NCBI RefSeq assembly: GCF_900103485.1 | Contig: NZ_FNHW01000002.1 | Span: forward strand, 186,001-250,000 | From: Fictibacillus solisalsi | GTDB lineage: Bacteria > Bacillota > Bacilli > Bacillales > Fictibacillaceae | DNA length: 64,000 nt | Direction of reading: 5' to 3' | Shown here: piece by piece, positions 16,862-36,534 of the stretch | Layout: every line of letters starts with the position of its first letter | Numbering within the stretch: position 1 is the stretch's first letter | Notes under the pieces: model-generated | Told to the model about the DNA's origin: nothing | The model's database searches: none | The model's input: only the letters and a program-made list of their open reading frames with translations | Position numbers and translations under genes: made by a program

Positions 16862-17100
16862 AAAAGGATGTTTTTTGCCGGAAAACAGCTGAATGCAGTT
16901 TTTTTCTTATATGTCACAAAAGAAGCAGTGGTTAGGAAAGTCTGTAAGCGTAAAATAATGAGTTCAAAACCATGTGGTAAGGGAAATACAGGCAGAAATG
17001 GAGAACTTACTGTCTGCCGCCCTTTATATTAAAAATCTTTTAATCTCGTAAACGTTTGTACAATCCTCGATGACAAGGAACCAAGCAAAAAAGAAATGCA
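16862..17100. other. Intergenic stretch with no recognised gene
   Basis: Between the permease gene and the terminator at 17101 I see no convincing gene. A 24-codon frame near 16958 lacks a ribosome site. A weak cre-like sequence (CGTAAACGTTTGTA) is at about 17047, and a short inverted repeat GGCAGA/TCTGCC near 16992-17019. A small RNA ending at 17137 cannot be excluded. Confidence 0.4.
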
Positions 17101-17141: not shown

Positions 17142-17201
17142 TAAAAGCGTTTACATTTTTCGCGAATTCCGTTAAAATGAATTTTGCATACGTATTCAAA
17201 A
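17142..17201 (+). promoter_or_regulatory. Promoter, cre-like site and LacI-type operator of the dehydrogenase cluster
   Basis: A sigma-A promoter is seen as TTTACA (17150-17155), 17-base spacer, TAAAAT (17173-17178). A near-cre sequence (minus strand TGTAAACGCTTTTA, 17142-17155, one deviation from the CcpA consensus) covers the -35 box. The near-palindrome TTTTGCATACGTATTCAAAA (17182-17201) lies just after the -10 box, where a repressor would block transcription. An identical 20-mer stands before the HisD-like gene. Dual control by CcpA and the cluster's own LacI protein is inferred. Confidence 0.75.
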
Positions 17202-17230
17202 ACGAGATTATTCAGAAAGTTGGTGATTAC

Positions 17231-18187
17231 GTGGAAAATTTAACGGTTCTTGGCTGTGGTACGATGGGACATTCCATTGCGTTAAATGCCGCATGGGCAG
17301 GAATGGATGTGACCCTTCAGGGGATCGATGAACAAAACTGTGAGACAGGCTGGAAAAGCCTTGTGAGGAAGCTGAATGTTCTTGTGGACCATGGTTTGTT
17401 CAGTGGCTTGGAGGCTCAGCAAATCAGAGACCGCATCACCATGGCCATGTCCATCGAAGAGGCAGTCAAAGGTGCAACCTTTGTCATTGAAGCCGTCCCT
17501 GAAAACCTTGAATTAAAAAAATCATTGTTTACCAGACTTGATGCTTTGTGTGGTGAACATGTTATCCTTGCCAGCAATACTTCCGGCTTAAGTCCGACTT
17601 CAATTGCTTCAGAAATACGTCTGCCAGAGAGGGTTGTCGTTACTCATTTTTGGAATCCGGCTCATTTGATTCCCCTTGTTGAGGTGGTGCGTGGAGAAAA
17701 TACGAACGATGACACGGTAAAACGCAGCTTTGATCTTTTAAACGAGATGAAGAAGAAACCGATTGAAGTCAAAAAGGAATTGCCGGGCTTTATTGGCAAC
17801 CGGCTTCAATATGCGTTGTTCCGTGAGGCGCAGTATCTCCTGGAAACAGGCGCTGCCTCCAAAGAAGACATAGATGCGGCGGTCACCTACAGCATTGGCC
17901 GCAGGCTCCCGGTCACCGGTCCCCTGCAGTCAGCAGACCTTGGTGGTTTGGATGTATTTTCTTCGATCTCCGACTATTTATTCAGCGATTTATCCTCTGC
18001 CGAAGAATCGCTTCCTGTTTTAAAAGAACTGGTGAAAAAGGAAAAACTCGGCGAGAAAACGGGGGAAGGGTTTTACAAGTGGGATGAGCCGTTTTCAGAG
18101 GAGATTCAGCTGAAACGTGAAAAAGAACTTATCCGTTACTTGAAAGAAGATCTGGCAGCTGATCATGTGATGGGAGGCCAATCATGA
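17231..18187 (+). CDS. 3-hydroxyacyl-CoA dehydrogenase-family oxidoreductase
   Basis: A 318-residue NAD-dependent dehydrogenase with the Rossmann motif GCGTMG at the N-terminus, NTSGLSPTSIA and the HFWNPAHLIPLVEVV motif with the catalytic histidine, and a C-terminal dimer domain (PGFIGNRLQYALFREA). Stand-alone members of this size include carnitine dehydrogenase and L-gulonate 3-dehydrogenase, so the substrate need not be a CoA ester. The promoter and operator lie inside the longer open frame, so I start at GTG 17231, after GGTGAT. Its last base overlaps the SDR start (ATGA). Confidence 0.82.
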   Translation: MENLTVLGCGTMGHSIALNAAWAGMDVTLQGIDEQNCETGWKSLVRKLNVLVDHGLFSGLEAQQIRDRITMAMSIEEAVKGATFVIEAVPENLELKKSLFTRLDALCGEHVILASNTSGLSPTSIASEIRLPERVVVTHFWNPAHLIPLVEVVRGENTNDDTVKRSFDLLNEMKKKPIEVKKELPGFIGNRLQYALFREAQYLLETGAASKEDIDAAVTYSIGRRLPVTGPLQSADLGGLDVFSSISDYLFSDLSSAEESLPVLKELVKKEKLGEKTGEGFYKWDEPFSEEIQLKREKELIRYLKEDLAADHVMGGQS

Positions 18188-18945
18188 AATATTTTCCGGA
18201 CCTTGAAGGCAAAGCGGTCCTTGTGACTGGGGGCGGAAAAGGAATTGGAAGGGATATTGCGCTGGCGTTTGCAGAGCATGGAGCAAACGTTGTGATCGTC
18301 GGGCGTAATGAAAAGGATTTGGCTGAAACCACACAAGCATTGAAACAGCACCAAACCCAATGTTCCTACATTACCGGTGATTTAAGTGCGGTGGATGAAG
18401 TCCATCGGGTGGTTGATTATGCAGCTGCAGAATTGGGAACCCTCGATATCCTGATCAACAATGCTGGTATTAATATCGCCAAACCGGCTCTTGAAGTGAC
18501 CGAGGAGGACTGGGATCGTATTCAGGATATTAACCTGAAGGGCGCATTCTTTTGCAGTCAGGCAGCAGCAAAAATCATGTTGCCAAAAAAAGAGGGAAAG
18601 ATTGTGAACATCGCCTCCCAAATGGCCTTTGTCGGGTATTTCAACCGTGCGGCCTATTGTGCGAGCAAGGGCGGTATGGTGCAGATGACGAAGGCGCTGG
18701 CTGTGGAATGGGCACAGCATAAGATTAATGTGAATGCGGTCGCTCCAACGTTTATCGAGACAGAGATGACCGGAAAAATGTTCAGGGATGAAGCTTTCAA
18801 GGAAGACGTGCTTCGCCGGATTCCGCTCGGTGGACTGGCGGAACCTTCGGATATATCAAACGCTGCATTATACCTTTCATCAAACGTCTCAAAGTTTGTG
18901 ACGGGAGAAACGATCAAAGTAGATGGCGGCTGGACAGCCATATGA
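18184..18945 (+). CDS. Short-chain dehydrogenase/reductase
   Basis: A 253-residue classical SDR with cofactor motif TGGGKGIG, the structural NNAG motif, and catalytic Ser in NIASQMAF and YCASK. It resembles gluconate 5-dehydrogenase and FabG-like enzymes. The start overlaps the previous stop (ATGA), so the two are translated together. The substrate is probably a hydroxy acid or polyol handled by the cluster (inference). A second copy of the LacI-type operator follows directly after its stop. Confidence 0.85.
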   Translation: MKYFPDLEGKAVLVTGGGKGIGRDIALAFAEHGANVVIVGRNEKDLAETTQALKQHQTQCSYITGDLSAVDEVHRVVDYAAAELGTLDILINNAGINIAKPALEVTEEDWDRIQDINLKGAFFCSQAAAKIMLPKKEGKIVNIASQMAFVGYFNRAAYCASKGGMVQMTKALAVEWAQHKINVNAVAPTFIETEMTGKMFRDEAFKEDVLRRIPLGGLAEPSDISNAALYLSSNVSKFVTGETIKVDGGWTAI

Positions 18946-18947
18946 TT

Positions 18948-18967
18948 TTTTGCATACGTATTCAAAA
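18948..18967 (+). promoter_or_regulatory. Second LacI-type operator
   Basis: TTTTGCATACGTATTCAAAA, identical over all 20 bases to the operator at 17182-17201, lies between the SDR stop and the HisD-like ribosome site. It is close to a palindrome centred on ACGT. It suggests an internal promoter or a repressor roadblock or loop between two sites 1.77 kb apart. Confidence 0.75.
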
Positions 18968-18990
18968 ATAGAAAAGGAGAGAAAAATAAC

Positions 18991-20280
18991 ATGGCATACT
19001 TTTTAAAAGAAGGAAAATCCAATCAGGAAGTACAAGAAGCGGATTCCAAAGTAAGGGACGCCGTAAGCTCAGTTATTAAAAACGTGGAAGAAAACGGAGA
19101 CAAGGCAGTTCGCGAGCTATCCGAAAAGTTTGACAAGTGGTCACCGGAGTCTTTCCGCTTAAGTGAACAGGAAATTCAGGAGATCGTAAACAGTGTGCCT
19201 TCTCAGGTGATTGAGGATATTAAATTCGCACAAGCACAGATCCGCAATTTTGCCCAAAAGCAAAAGGAATCCCTTCAGGATCTTGAAGTGGAAACACTGC
19301 CTGGCGTTGTGCTGGGCCACAAGAACATTCCGGTGAACAGCGTGGGCTGCTACATTCCAGGCGGACGTTACCCAATGGTTGCTTCCTCCCACATGAGTGT
19401 TCTTACAGCAAAAGTGGCGGGCGTCAAACGGGTAATTGCCTGCACACCTCCTATTAAAGGAGAAATCCCTGCAGCAACTGTGGCAGCGATGCATTTGGCA
19501 GGAGCAAATGAAATCTATCTTCTTGGTGGCATCCAGGCGATGGCGGCAATGGCGATCGGTACGGAAACCATTGAACCGGTGGATATGATTGTAGGACCGG
19601 GTAATGCATTTGTTGCGGAAGCGAAACGCCAGTTGTTCGGAAGAGTGGGGATTGACTTGTTCGCCGGACCAACAGAAACACTTGTTATTGCTGACGAAAC
19701 GGCGGATGCAGAAATGATCGCGACGGATATGCTTGGACAGGCTGAACATGGACCAACATCTCCAAGCGCTTTGATTACGACGTCTGAAACATTGGCCAGA
19801 GAAACACTGGAGGAAGTAGAACGCCAGCTGCAGATTCTCCCGACAGCTGATATTGCCAGTGTATCCTGGAACGATTATGGCTCCGTTATCGTTGTTGACT
19901 CTCTTGAAGAAGCCGTTGTTGAAGCGGATAAATTGGCGTATGAGCATGTCGAAGTGCTGACAGAAGACCCGAACTACTTTTTAGAGAACATGACCAACTT
20001 CGGAGCGCTTTTCCTTGGTAAGGAAACCAATGTGGCTTACGGGGACAAAGTGATCGGCACCAACCACACATTGCCGACCAAAAAGGCCGCGCGCTATACC
20101 GGCGGCTTGTGGGTAGGGAAGTTCCTCAAGACATGCACCTATCAGCGGGTGACACCTGAAGCGAGTGCAGAGATCGGGGAATATGCATCACGGCTTTGTG
20201 AGCTGGAAGGATTCATGGGTCACAAAGCGCAGGCAGATTTACGTGTGAAACGCTATGGCAAAGATAAAGCAAAAATCTGA
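18991..20280 (+). CDS. Histidinol-dehydrogenase-like NAD-dependent alcohol dehydrogenase (catabolic)
   Basis: A 429-residue HisD-superfamily enzyme. The zinc ligands of HisD seem present (Gln250, His253, Asp352, His411), as does the catalytic pair Glu318-His319. HisD-type enzymes oxidise an alcohol to a carboxylate in two NAD-dependent steps. No histidine genes are near; the neighbours are a LacI regulator, a GntP permease and two other dehydrogenases. This fits a catabolic paralogue such as HpsN, sulfopropanediol 3-dehydrogenase. I infer oxidation of a small polyol or hydroxysulfonate to an acid; the exact substrate is open. A good AAAGGAGAG site precedes the ATG. Confidence 0.82.
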
Positions 20281-20320
20281 TATAATCTTTTCTGTCTAGA
20301 TCGGCAGGAGGAATACTATT

Positions 20321-21322
20321 TTGAATAAAAAAGTGACAGCGATGGATGTCGCCCGGTTGGCAGGAGTCTCCCAATCGAGCGTCTCCAGAGCGTTTAGTAA
20401 AAATGCGAGCATTTCAAATAAAAAAAGAAAATTGATCCTGGATGCAGCTGAGAAGCTGGGGTATCAGCCCAATGCGATCGCCAGAGGGCTGATAACCAAT
20501 CAATCAAGAATTATTGGCATTGTAATGCGTGATGTGCAAAACCCATTCTATCCAGAGGTGCTTGAGAAATTTTACAGCAGGCTGTCGGAAGAAGGGTATC
20601 AGATCATGTTCATCAATTCCCAGAATGATGAAATCCAGGAACATGAAGTGAGCCAGCTGATTGAGTATAGTGTGGAAGGCGTGATCATCACTGACGCCCT
20701 TTTAACCTCAGCCGCGGTTCAAAAACTCAATCGAAATGGCATTTCTGTTGTGCTGTTTAACCGCTATATTAGCGATTCTATGAGTAATGCCGTCATCTGC
20801 AACAACTTTTCGGCAGGTCAGAAGATCGGTCAATACCTTTTGGACACCGGTCACCGGCATTTGGGATTCATCTCCGGGCCGGCTAATACGTCCACATCCC
20901 TGGACAGGAGCAGGGGATTCATGGATACACTGCAAAAGCATGGCATCGAATTCATCCCGATGGAGGATGGCAGCTTCACGTATCAGGGCGGGTTTGCTGC
21001 AGCAAAAAATTTGATGAAGCATCATGATGAAATTGATGCGTTGTTTTGCGCGAACGATATTATGGCATTCGGTGCCATTGATTATTTGACTACCGCCGGA
21101 TACCGGATTCCTGAAGATATCTCGGTTATTGGATTTGATAATGTGAAAATGGCGGACTGGTCATCCTATACGCTGACCACCTGGCAGCAGCCGGTGGATG
21201 AAATGATTCATCAGGCGGTAAAACTTATGCTGGAAGATATTAATGGACAGCAGGAAGAACCGGAAATGAATTTTGTGGACGGATGCCTCATAGAACGTGC
21301 TTCGGTTAAAGACAGACGCTGA
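20321..21322 (+). CDS. LacI-family repressor of the cluster
   Basis: A 333-residue regulator with N-terminal helix-turn-helix MDVARLAGVSQSSVSRAFSKN (residues 6-26), hinge near residue 55, and a periplasmic-binding-protein-like effector domain. The start is TTG with GCAGGAGG upstream. Since an identical LacI-type palindrome stands before both transcription units of the cluster, this protein is the natural candidate to bind them, with the cluster's substrate as inducer. Confidence 0.87.
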   Translation: MNKKVTAMDVARLAGVSQSSVSRAFSKNASISNKKRKLILDAAEKLGYQPNAIARGLITNQSRIIGIVMRDVQNPFYPEVLEKFYSRLSEEGYQIMFINSQNDEIQEHEVSQLIEYSVEGVIITDALLTSAAVQKLNRNGISVVLFNRYISDSMSNAVICNNFSAGQKIGQYLLDTGHRHLGFISGPANTSTSLDRSRGFMDTLQKHGIEFIPMEDGSFTYQGGFAAAKNLMKHHDEIDALFCANDIMAFGAIDYLTTAGYRIPEDISVIGFDNVKMADWSSYTLTTWQQPVDEMIHQAVKLMLEDINGQQEEPEMNFVDGCLIERASVKDRR

Positions 21323-21350
21323 CAGGCCAAGTCTTTACGGGAGGTAAGTT

Positions 21351-22661
21351 ATGCTTAGTATGATTGGTTTGATTGGCGGGCTTGCGCTGTTGATTCTGCT
21401 TACCATGATTGGAATGAATTTATTGGTTGCAGGGCCGCTATCTGCATTTATTGTAGCGATTACGAGCGGGTTGCCGCTTTTCCCGCAGCTTGCAGGTAAA
21501 AATGAACCAGATTTTGTGACAAACTATATGGGTGGATTTACTGGGTTTATCGCGTCCTGGTACTTTATGTTTTTAATCGGCGCCATTTTCGGCAAACTGA
21601 TGGAAGACAGCGGAGCCGCGGACAGCATCTCCAAATGGGTGACCGACCGGATTGGTGTAAAGAAGGCGGCGCTTGCTGTTGTTATTGCCTGCGCGGTGCT
21701 CACATACGGGGGAGTTAGTCTTTTTGTTGTTGCGTTTTCCGTTTATCCCATGGCATTAAGCCTTTTTAAAGAAGCAGATCTGCCGAGGCGGTTTATCCCT
21801 GCTGCTCTCGGATTTGGCTCCACGACGTTTACCATGACCAGTGCGGGTTCACCAGAAATCCAAAACTGGATTCCCATTGAATTTTTGGGAACGACACCTT
21901 ATGCAGGGTGGCAGGTAAGCTTGGTTGTAGCTGTGTTTATGATGATTTTTGGTTACTGGTGGCTTAAAAAAATGATTAAAAAAGCCATCTCTCGCGGGGA
22001 ACGTTTCGAATCCCGGGAGACTGATTCTACTCAAGTGCGTGAGAAGCTGCCTAATCCTTATCTAAGCTGCATTCCTTTGCTTATTGTACTGGGTATTTCG
22101 TTTTCGCTTCATAAGTCTCTTGCGCAGTCCTCATTAATTATTGCTCTGCTGGGAGGATGTATTTCGGTTTACCTTATTAATCGAAAGTACTTTATCAATT
22201 TTTCGAAAGCGGTTACAGAAGGTACAATCGGCGCGATTATCGCCATATCCAATACCGCAGCAGTTGTCGGTTTTGGAGGAGTCGCCAAAGCCACCCCTGC
22301 ATTTTCACACGTGGTGGATGCAATGACGAATATCCCGGGAAGCCCGCTCATTGGCGGAGCGATCGCGGTTTGTATTATAGCCGGTCTTACAGGATCTTCA
22401 TCCGGAGGACAGAGCATCGCCCTGCCTCTTTTGGCCCCTCATTATCTCGATATGGGCGTCAATCCTGACGCACTTCACCGGGTGGCCGCTATTTCTTCCG
22501 GATCTTTGGACTCCCTTCCTCAAGGGGGCTATGTGGTTACGACCATCCGGGCGATTGCCGGTGAAAAACATAAGGACGCCTACCCGGCTTTTGGAGCCTT
22601 GACGGTTGTTGTTCCCCTGCTTGGAGTAATATTGGCAGTTATGTTATTTGTAATTTTTTAA
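21351..22661 (+). CDS. GntP-family organic acid permease
   Basis: A 436-residue membrane protein with about 12 hydrophobic helices. It has GntP-family features: an N-terminal GLIGGLALLILLTMIGMNLL helix and a conserved GLTGSSSGGQSIALPLLAPHYLDMG region at about residues 346-370. GntP proteins import gluconate, hydroxybutyrate and similar hydroxy acids with protons, so an anionic hydroxy compound is the likely substrate of the cluster. It is the last gene, followed by a terminator. Ribosome site GGGAGG. Confidence 0.88.
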   Translation: MLSMIGLIGGLALLILLTMIGMNLLVAGPLSAFIVAITSGLPLFPQLAGKNEPDFVTNYMGGFTGFIASWYFMFLIGAIFGKLMEDSGAADSISKWVTDRIGVKKAALAVVIACAVLTYGGVSLFVVAFSVYPMALSLFKEADLPRRFIPAALGFGSTTFTMTSAGSPEIQNWIPIEFLGTTPYAGWQVSLVVAVFMMIFGYWWLKKMIKKAISRGERFESRETDSTQVREKLPNPYLSCIPLLIVLGISFSLHKSLAQSSLIIALLGGCISVYLINRKYFINFSKAVTEGTIGAIIAISNTAAVVGFGGVAKATPAFSHVVDAMTNIPGSPLIGGAIAVCIIAGLTGSSSGGQSIALPLLAPHYLDMGVNPDALHRVAAISSGSLDSLPQGGYVVTTIRAIAGEKHKDAYPAFGALTVVVPLLGVILAVMLFVIF

Positions 22662-22666
22662 CAGTT

Positions 22667-22698
22667 AAAGGTCTCTCATGAGGCCTTTTTTCTTTTTA
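22667..22698 (+). terminator. Terminator of the dehydrogenase/GntP cluster
   Basis: AAAGGTCTC pairs with a GAGGCCTTT segment (one wobble), followed by TTTTTTC. Confidence 0.7.
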
Positions 22699-22775: not shown

Positions 22776-24233
22776 ATGTACAACCATCCTTACCGGCCGC
22801 AGTTTCATTTTTCGCCAAAGGAAAAGTGGATGAATGATCCGAACGGTCTTGTGTATTACAACGGGGAATATCATTTGTTTTATCAATATCATCCGGAAAG
22901 CACGGTGTGGGGTCCGATGCACTGGGGTCATGCGGTGAGCCCTGACCTTATCCACTGGGAGGAGCTCCCCGTGGCGTTATATCCGGATGAACTCGGCATG
23001 ATTTTTTCCGGATGTGCCGTTGTTGACCGTGACAATACGAGCGGATTAAAAGAAGGGGAAGAAGATGTCCTGGTTGCCTTTTACACCCAGCACGAGGAAA
23101 ACAACGAGAAACAAAGCCTGGCCTACAGCCATGACAGGGGGCGGACTTGGATTAAATATGACCAGAATCCGGTTATTGCCAATCCCGGACTGAAGGACTT
23201 TCGTGATCCAAAAGTATTTTGGAGCCAGGAAAACGCCAAATGGATCATGTGCCTGGCCGCGGGTGACGAGATTCAATTTTACGAGTCATCCAATTTGATC
23301 AACTGGGAGTACATGTCGTCATTTGGACAAGGTTTTGGTGCCCACGGCGGAGTTTGGGAATGCCCTGACCTGTTTCAACTGAAGGTGGACGGCACCGGCA
23401 CGAAAAAGTGGGTGCTGATCGTGAGCATCAATCCCGGGGGGCCAAATGGCGGATCGGCAACCCAGTATTTTGTCGGCGAGTTTGACGGCAAAGCTTTCCA
23501 CCCAGATGAGGGACCGGCCGATATTCGCTGGGCAGATGGCGGAAAGGATTTTTATGCGGCGGTTTCCTGGAGCAATACGGAAGTAGAGCGCAAAATCTGG
23601 ATCGGCTGGATGAGCAACTGGCAGTATGCCAATGAAGTGCCTACAGATCCGTGGAGAAGCGCGATGTCCTTGCCGAGGGAGCTTGGCTTGAAAATGACCG
23701 AGAGCGGTTGGTGCTTGACCCAAAAAGTCGTTAAAGAGTTTGACATTATAAAGGAAGAAAAGTTAAACACGTATGAAAATGTGGTTGTAAAAGATGAGCA
23801 GCCGTTTGTGTTTCCAAGCAAGGACGAGCTGTTTGAATTAAAGCTCAAACCAAAAAGTATAGACCCTGATACGAAGGAATGGGGCATTGTTCTTCGAAAA
23901 GGTGAAAAAACCGAAACATGTGTAACCTACAGCCGGGTAAACCGGCAGTGGAGTGTGGACCGCCGCAGAAGTGGAACGATTGATTTTTCCGAGCATTTTC
24001 CGAGCCTCGATGCGGCGGTGGCTACCCGCCAGCACACCGATCACCATGTTCAGCTGATTTTGGATGCCTGTTCGCTGGAACTCTTTGCTGCTGATGGGGA
24101 GTTAATGATGACAGAGCTTCTTTTTCCGTTTGATGAAGACTTTACCATGCAGCTTTATTCTGTTGGCGGAGAAGTTGCCTTTGAAGAAGTGAAGCTCACC
24201 CGCTTGAAATCCATTTGGAATCCAAAAGCCTAA
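22776..24233 (+). CDS. GH32 beta-fructosidase, intracellular
   Basis: A 485-residue glycoside hydrolase family 32 enzyme, hydrolysing beta-fructosides such as sucrose, levan or inulin oligosaccharides. The nucleophile aspartate is in WMNDPNG (about residues 18-24), the transition-state stabiliser in FRDPK, and the acid/base glutamate in WECPDLF. The beta-propeller is followed by a beta-sandwich at about 340-485. No signal peptide exists, so it acts on imported sugar. No PTS or sugar transporter gene is adjacent, which is unlike sacPA or levanase operons. Good ribosome site (ACGGAGG). Confidence 0.9.
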   Translation: MYNHPYRPQFHFSPKEKWMNDPNGLVYYNGEYHLFYQYHPESTVWGPMHWGHAVSPDLIHWEELPVALYPDELGMIFSGCAVVDRDNTSGLKEGEEDVLVAFYTQHEENNEKQSLAYSHDRGRTWIKYDQNPVIANPGLKDFRDPKVFWSQENAKWIMCLAAGDEIQFYESSNLINWEYMSSFGQGFGAHGGVWECPDLFQLKVDGTGTKKWVLIVSINPGGPNGGSATQYFVGEFDGKAFHPDEGPADIRWADGGKDFYAAVSWSNTEVERKIWIGWMSNWQYANEVPTDPWRSAMSLPRELGLKMTESGWCLTQKVVKEFDIIKEEKLNTYENVVVKDEQPFVFPSKDELFELKLKPKSIDPDTKEWGIVLRKGEKTETCVTYSRVNRQWSVDRRRSGTIDFSEHFPSLDAAVATRQHTDHHVQLILDACSLELFAADGELMMTELLFPFDEDFTMQLYSVGGEVAFEEVKLTRLKSIWNPKA

Positions 24234-36414: not shown

Positions 36415-36534
36415 AATCTCTTATCAAGAGTGGCAGAGGGACTGGCCCTATGACGCCCGGCAACCGTTCCATTTATGGAATTGGTGCTAAATCCTGCAAA
36501 ACAGCTATGCTGTTTTGAAAGATGAGAGAGGACG
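36415..36534 (+). ncRNA. SAM-I (S-box) riboswitch
   Basis: All S-box hallmarks are seen: P1 strands CTCTTATC (36417-36424) and GATGAGAG (about 36522-36529), the conserved AGAGTGGCAGAGGGACTGGC, ATGACGCCCGGCAACC, the GGTGCTAAATCCTGC segment, and a P4 hairpin AAAACAGC/GCTGTTTT. When SAM binds, P1 forms and the terminator at 36558 can fold; without SAM the 3' strand of P1 (GAGAGAGG) can pair with CCTCTC of the terminator. The ABC transporter genes below are thus on when SAM is low. Confidence 0.96.

Follow-up and report, generated by a model that had tools for sequence, protein, structure and literature searches.

Here we analyzed a five-gene cluster in a 64,000-nucleotide stretch of the Fictibacillus solisalsi genome (contig NZ_FNHW01000002.1, positions 186,001 to 250,000; hereafter the window). 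The cluster is built around HisDL, a dehydrogenase of the HisD/HpsN family that is a HisD relative outside histidine synthesis. We tentatively read it as a LacI-controlled operon for the uptake and oxidation of a small hydroxy-carboxylate, most likely converting 3,4-dihydroxybutyrate to malate. In the open reading frame (ORF) list of the window, all five ORFs lie tightly spaced on the + strand between 17177 and 22661; the HAD and SDR genes overlap by 4 bases, and the remaining intergenic gaps are 45, 40, and 28 bases. The genes are as follows.

17231..18187 (mechanical ORF 17177-18187), + strand: HAD, 3-hydroxyacyl-CoA-dehydrogenase family (Pfam 3HCDH_N/3HCDH)
18184..18945, + strand: SDR, short-chain dehydrogenase (Pfam adh_short)
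18991..20280, + strand: HisDL, HisD/HpsN-family dehydrogenase (Pfam Histidinol_dh, 486 bits)
20321..21322, + strand: LacI-family repressor with a TTG start (Pfam LacI/Peripla_BP)
21351..22661, + strand: GntP/CitMHS-type permease, proposed importer of a hydroxy-acid anion (Pfam GntP_permease and CitMHS)

An earlier note, made from the letters of this DNA alone, had described a cluster of these five genes, and the ORFs, the Pfam matches, and their recurrence bear it out. The gene set recurs across many other genomes, so the cluster is not a chance arrangement. The note had also taken the HisD-like protein for a paralogue working outside histidine synthesis. The 4.80-Mb genome (14 contigs) contains a single other match to HisDL, at 39–41% identity, and this is the organism's own HisD, which scores 566.8 bits and sits in a hisZGDBH operon (locus L002) whose neighboring genes score as HisZ, HisG, HisB, and HisH. 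The window protein is therefore not the only hisD product, and because it also falls apart from HisD in the tree described below, it is not the histidine enzyme. The chance that it is a second histidinol dehydrogenase, serving histidine synthesis or the use of histidinol, is vanishingly small: HisDL does score 481 bits on the hisD model TIGR00069, which is above the cut-off, but the true hisD lies in its own operon, no his genes stand beside HisDL, and the tree places HisDL outside the HisD-labeled rows. We accordingly rejected a biosynthetic HisD identity. HisD and HisDL share the PF00815 family and the catalytic residues, and differ in their motif and in a Tyr of the genome's own HisD where HisDL has Lys353.

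The nearest solved relatives of HisDL are HpsN (400 bits) and the (R)-2,3-dihydroxypropane-1-sulfonate (DHPS) dehydrogenase (369 bits). A scan of named genomes gave 299 encoding stretches, the best 80 of which are the first-scan loci referred to throughout. Of the 54 rows in the maximum-likelihood tree, 26 come from plasmid records and 25 were taken from among the 80 first-scan loci; the others are the window protein, its genome's HisD, and one paralogue. L110 (Sinorhizobium sp. C101) was left out because of a stop in its reading frame. The window clade of 42 rows forms one side of a branch with 96/96 support and is sister to five HpsN-labeled rows (100/99), with the joint branch also at 100/99 and four HisD-labeled rows set apart at 100/99. 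These labels rest on motif and annotation, with one HpsN row annotated hpsN and two HisD rows lying within his operons. The tree program flagged meeting long branches, a situation in which joins can be spurious; all rows were kept. The phylogeny proposed in the earlier note thus places HisDL closer to HpsN than to HisD. Three further HisD-like proteins were noticed. Paralogues at L022:13238-14515 (motif GRFPL), adjoining HpcH-family and amidase genes, and at L109:7923-9221 (GRYPL) lie outside the HisD, HpsN, and window clades. A second HisD-like protein at L125:11504-12772, 54% identical to HisDL and with motif GRYPI, has a threonine-synthase-like enzyme and an amino-acid permease as neighbors and perhaps belongs to an amino-alcohol-using sister subfamily. 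The copy with the in-frame stop occupies L110:8001-9240 of a Sinorhizobium plasmid record.

Alignment to HpsN of Cupriavidus pinatubonensis (CpHpsN, PDB 8v35) places the Zn ligands of HisDL at Q250, H253, D352, and H411 and the catalytic residues at E318 and H319 (window numbering). HisDL thus carries the Gln/His/Asp/His set and catalytic Glu-His of the HisD superfamily (PF00815), as the earlier note had recognized, and it retains Lys353. According to the CpHpsN paper, His126 contacts the sulfonate and distinguishes HpsN (GRY-A/S-H) from HisD, Lys353 is the other sulfonate contact, and the enzyme is inactive on glycerol phosphate and histidinol; its text mentions neither malate nor dihydroxybutyrate (PMC11382572). 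In the same account, enzymes of the family turn a CH2OH into a carboxylate when it adjoins an amino or hydroxyl group bound to Zn (PMC11382572). HisDL has the motif PGGRYPM, with Met129 at the position of His126, a replacement that the earlier note had missed. RYPM occurs in all 80 first-scan loci, followed by His at the CpHpsN Tyr131 position, while the relatives on plasmids have K-Y/F-P-M/L in Proteobacteria and RYPM in Deinococcus with Ile at the Tyr131 position. Overall, HisDL and CpHpsN share 46% identity and differ by His126 to Met, Tyr131 to His, and Ser226 to Thr. We rejected membership of HpsN itself, both on the motif (GRYPM, no His126) and on the clade (sister, not inside). Since the Zn and catalytic residues and Lys353 are retained while His126 is replaced by Met, the pocket looks as though it still fits an anion, though differently from HpsN.

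The partner proteins also bear on the substrate. HAD matches Pfam 3HCDH_N at 195 bits, and all 20 curated NCBIfam models listed for it, among which a 3-hydroxyacyl-CoA dehydrogenase acting on CoA substrates was sought, fall below their cut-offs. By sequence, FHMPC dehydrogenase (4om8, 199.6 bits), likewise of the 3HCDH family, is its closest relative of solved structure, although HAD reaches 241.9 of the 500 bits required by the NCBIfam model of that enzyme and presumably has a different substrate. The substrate of 4om8 is not known to be a CoA ester. Two HAD orthologues (62–63% identity) are located apart from HisDL. In L125 the gene follows the 3-oxoacid CoA-transferase pair scoAB (TIGR02429 and TIGR02428, above cut-off), and in L124 its neighbors are a thiolase, a TRAP transporter, a 3-hydroxybutyryl-CoA dehydrogenase, an SDR sharing 50% identity with that of the window, a LacI gene, and a FadX-like protein (below cut-off), which we take to be a CoA-transferase. 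This company of CoA-transferase-type genes suggests that HAD oxidizes a free 3-hydroxy acid to a free 3-oxo acid. As the window operon has neither a CoA-transferase nor a thiolase, such a 3-oxo acid would more likely be an intermediate in the inversion of a hydroxyl. The SDR has the classical features (TGGGKGIG, S145, Y158, K162), is 36% identical to CpHpsO, and fits best the models of glucose 1-dehydrogenase, GolD/DthD, gluconate 5-dehydrogenase, and KduD. The GntP-like permease matches PF02447 (36.6 bits) and PF03600 (41 bits), weakly yet above both cut-offs, and does not pass TIGR00791 gntP (32.6 of 292.75 bits).

The cluster is common to many Bacillus-like bacteria. We counted neighbors on the same strand within 6.5 kb of HisDL at identities to the window's proteins of at least 40% for LacI, 60% for GntP, and 50% for HAD; some loci are cut by contig ends. 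By this measure LacI accompanies HisDL in 66 of the 80 first-scan loci, GntP in 56, SDR in 49, and HAD in 45, with all four in 38. Counted over entire loci, 45/80 have both HAD and SDR, 5/80 SDR alone, and 30/80 neither; in 16/80, LacI, HisDL, and GntP stand without HAD or SDR. Gene orders include HAD-SDR-HisDL-LacI-GntP, LacI-HisDL-GntP-HAD-SDR, and HisDL-GntP-SDR-HAD. We searched for HAD in 13 of the 16 genomes with only LacI, HisDL, and GntP (L018, L024, and L025 were left out), together with L046, L054, and the positive control L036. An orthologue of at least 58% identity is missing from 11 of the 13: nine have no match at E 1e-60 and two have relatives at 37–43% only, while the other two have an orthologue elsewhere in the genome (62–63%). 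L046 and L054 gave 37%, and the control 58%. Distribution within the order is patchy, with the HisDL cluster in 23 of 299 genomes (the window's own included) and 19 of 113 genera. In this sample another genome of the window's genus is without it, and two named Fictibacillus have it at 98%. The HisDL clade itself is found in Bacillota, Proteobacteria, Deinococcota, Bacteroidota, and Chloroflexota. Its members are annotated as histidinol dehydrogenase in 13 of 16 plasmid regions (the other three have no annotation), despite their own motif and their position outside HisD. Assigning a function to HisDL could cover a clade in five phyla and would help curb false calls of histidine synthesis and sulfonate use.

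In the HpsNOP scheme of epimerization and oxidation for DHPS, as in the window operon, one HisD-family oxidase is accompanied by two dehydrogenases that could invert a secondary hydroxyl. The HpsN locus also has adjacent LacI and SDR genes, but its importer is annotated as MFS and its third enzyme is the medium-chain dehydrogenase (MDR) HpsP, where the window operon has a GntP-type importer and HAD. Here inversion would fall to a 3HCDH-family enzyme together with an SDR, and the substrate anion is probably a carboxylate. Replacing the sulfonate of DHPS by a carboxylate gives 3,4-dihydroxybutyrate, and malate is likewise the carboxylate twin of sulfolactate. We favor 3,4-dihydroxybutyrate, at a little under even confidence, because it is this DHPS analog, because it is a 3-hydroxy acid as HAD needs, and because its product enters the tricarboxylic acid (TCA) cycle directly. 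In the proposed mechanism, GntP would import the hydroxy-acid anion. In HisDL, the anion's secondary hydroxyl and its acid group would both bind Zn, Lys353 assisting, and the enzyme would oxidize the neighboring CH2OH to COO- with NAD, in two steps, like HisD and HpsN. HAD and SDR would interconvert the 3-hydroxyl and the 3-oxo acid, making the other enantiomer usable, and malate would enter the TCA cycle with no dedicated kinase, aldolase, or CoA ligase. That the partner dehydrogenases invert a hydroxyl had been suggested in the earlier note; their tendency to travel together (45/80) fits this, and the inversion itself we infer. The LacI-HisDL-GntP unit standing alone in 16/80 loci, with a close HAD missing from 11 of the 13 such genomes searched, suggests that import and one four-electron oxidation may already yield a central metabolite.

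The full assignment, in which HisDL is a 3,4-dihydroxybutyrate 4-dehydrogenase making malate and HAD and SDR epimerize the substrate via 4-hydroxyacetoacetate, is more tentative still. It would be a previously undescribed route by which many Bacillus-like bacteria bring a sugar-degradation acid into the TCA cycle. Consistent with it are the sister position to HpsN, the retained catalytic and Zn residues and Lys353, the replacement of His126 by Met, and RYPM in all 80 loci. Genes beside the cluster may lend further support. In 5/80 loci (L036, L044, L059, L065, L068) a malic-enzyme-like gene follows the SDRs as the next gene on the same strand; two of the five proteins were scanned and score 449 and 441 bits on a long malic-enzyme model whose cut-off is 1178, and the other three cluster with them. 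In sulfonate catabolism, a sulfo-lyase converts sulfolactate to pyruvate, and malic enzyme would do the same for malate. In addition, an extra SDR in the three loci scanned for it (L035, L045, L031) fits 3-hydroxybutyrate dehydrogenase models best. If correct, the malate route would name a sink for 3,4-dihydroxybutyrate, a compound often seen in metabolomics, and would show one Zn pocket retuned between imidazole, sulfonate, and carboxylate. No description of the five-gene cluster, nor any described pathway with this gene set, appears among the literature matches listed (open-licence full text, weak evidence).

Several observations weigh against this assignment. The malic-enzyme link is limited to Planococcus. 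In 13/80 loci an iron-dependent alcohol dehydrogenase (iron-ADH) and a PrdR-like regulator adjoin the cluster, 12 of the 13 with an IolA-like semialdehyde dehydrogenase (seven of these 12 rows are cut by the locus end), and the malate route has no need of them. They may form a 3-hydroxypropionate-type module; all three proteins were scanned in L082, the alcohol dehydrogenase in L005, and the semialdehyde dehydrogenase in L015. Relatives of HisDL in Proteobacteria and Deinococcus, at 59–70% identity, lie in other gene contexts and may use related but different compounds. Outside Bacillota, one such context has sugar ABC or TRAP transporters with SDR, LacI, cupin, hydrolase, ester cyclase, and HpcH- or RraA-type genes, and another has thiamine-diphosphate (TPP) and GMC enzymes. 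A third combines a lactonase-like protein with a HAD of just 32% identity, a fourth has acyl-CoA enzymes and an arylsulfatase, and a fifth transhydrogenase genes, which are present at the HpsN locus too. No enzyme assay for any member of the HisDL clade was found in the literature, and bacterial use of 3,4-dihydroxybutyrate is undescribed among the literature matches listed (open-licence papers, weak evidence).

A sulfonate alternative, in which HisDL has the function of HpsN and oxidizes DHPS to sulfolactate, draws on the nearest solved relatives, the sister clade, and the resemblance of the SDR to HpsO. Far from the operon, the genome also encodes an unfused pair of SuyA-like (44% over 57 amino acids) and SuyB-like (38%) proteins and a second SuyB-like protein (37%), which add to it, as do unfused SuyB-length relatives at 35–40% in 4 of 16 other carrier genomes. 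We nevertheless consider it very improbable, and DHPS use unlikely. The sulfonate-contacting His126 is replaced by Met, and the two SuyB-like proteins score 257 and 224 bits on the galactarate dehydratase model, against 152 for CpSuyB. As a control, limited to Proteobacteria, the SuyB candidate from a Paracoccus hps cluster shares 66% identity with CpSuyB. Six of the 16 other carriers lack any SuyB relative at E 1e-30, and none has a SuyB candidate above 40% identity (best 40%; CuyA was not searched for). Xsc matches in the window's genome stay under the cut-off of 676 bits (best 314), and in the 13 plasmid regions of the HisDL clade that are annotated, neither a sulfo-lyase nor a sulfopyruvate decarboxylase is listed. 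The window operon has no MDR gene. The earlier note had left the substrate as a sulfonate, a C4–C6 polyol, or a hydroxy acid; the sulfonate is thus weakened by the Met and by the lack of a close SuyB in the carriers, and a hydroxy acid fits best.

Two other explanations were considered. HisDL could take the terminal CH2OH of a longer aldonate to the aldarate, with SDR or HAD acting on an inner hydroxyl, and threonate, erythronate, a deoxypentonate, or a gluconate-like acid would be candidates. The GntP-type importer and the sugar-related best models of the SDR speak for this, as do PcaD-like hydrolases and HpcH- or RraA-type proteins in related clusters of other phyla (all below curated cut-offs) and three UxaA/GarD-family genes elsewhere in the genome. 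It is, however, somewhat improbable, as dehydratase and aldolase genes are both absent from the window operon, and LacI, HisDL, and GntP alone would leave an aldarate needing further dedicated enzymes, possibly encoded elsewhere. Alternatively, the operon could join two modules under the same repressor, HisDL and GntP for one substrate and HAD and SDR for a different 3-hydroxy acid, without inversion of enantiomers. HisDL occurs without HAD and SDR in 30/80 loci, and HAD, once with an SDR, is also found apart from HisDL, among CoA-transferase-type, TRAP, and thiolase genes. Nonetheless, HAD and SDR accompany HisDL in 45 loci and in several gene orders, and no CoA-transferase or thiolase in the window operon would use the 3-oxo acid, which makes this arrangement improbable.

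The candidate control elements around the operon are as follows.

17047..17060, no strand assigned: LacI/cre-like operator candidate CGTAAACGTTTGTA, upstream of the operon (pattern scan, 4/7 palindromic positions)
17142..17178, + strand: second LacI/cre-like candidate site TAAAAGCGTTTACA (17142-17155), sharing bases with the -35 (TTTACA from 17150) of a promoter-like pair whose -10 (TAAAAT) ends at 17178 (consensus matches)
22667..22688, + strand: terminator-like hairpin and T run, possible operon end (consensus match)

Since the promoter-like -10 overlaps ATG 17177 and the ORFs of many relatives are 311–318 amino acids long, GTG 17231 is the likelier start of HAD. Promoter-like sites are not enriched in the region (5 observed against 10.8 in shuffles), and terminator-like sites number 12 against 9.7. 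Both operator candidates fall below the counting threshold of 5/7 palindromic positions. Conservation of a LacI operator was considered and set aside as too weak for a claim, with a qualifying upstream palindrome in 12/80 loci (0.38 per kb, compared to 0.16 over whole loci).

Other genes near HisDL-type clusters were also recorded. The PrdR-like sigma-54 regulator and iron-ADH are found at L082:3114-7764 and in L072, L081, L055, L015, L005–L010, L012, and L013, adjoining the cluster; at least three arrangements are seen, and several include a further GntP-like permease. A malonate-semialdehyde dehydrogenase had appeared to be a regular partner (8 loci by single-linkage clustering), but this was rejected and three Sporosarcina aldehyde dehydrogenases (L045, L048, L051) were dropped: that of L045 fits the ExaC acetaldehyde dehydrogenase model (993 bits), and the three share about 30% identity with the IolA-like enzymes. 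Around the HisD-like gene in Paracoccus, Ruegeria, and Deinococcus (L104, L123, L098, L107) lie several genes labeled ester cyclase, together with a cupin and an alpha/beta hydrolase gene, which would form a larger pathway. The unfused SuyA-like/SuyB-like pair (region G000:C4:3026228-3026611, L092) stands beside a regulator that looks GntR-type, and may be a sulfo-lyase or a sugar-acid dehydratase. Downstream of the window operon, beyond the terminator-like hairpin, is a GH32 gene (22776-24233), with a relative in the same place only in the Fictibacillus loci L003 and L004 among the 80. Genes that by eye resemble gas-vesicle genes lie near the cluster in these two loci (L003:2242-5288, L004:2223-5270) and in Bacillus thermotolerans (L066:9995-13395). 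The window also contains an S-adenosylmethionine (SAM) riboswitch at 36418-36528 (94.7 bits).

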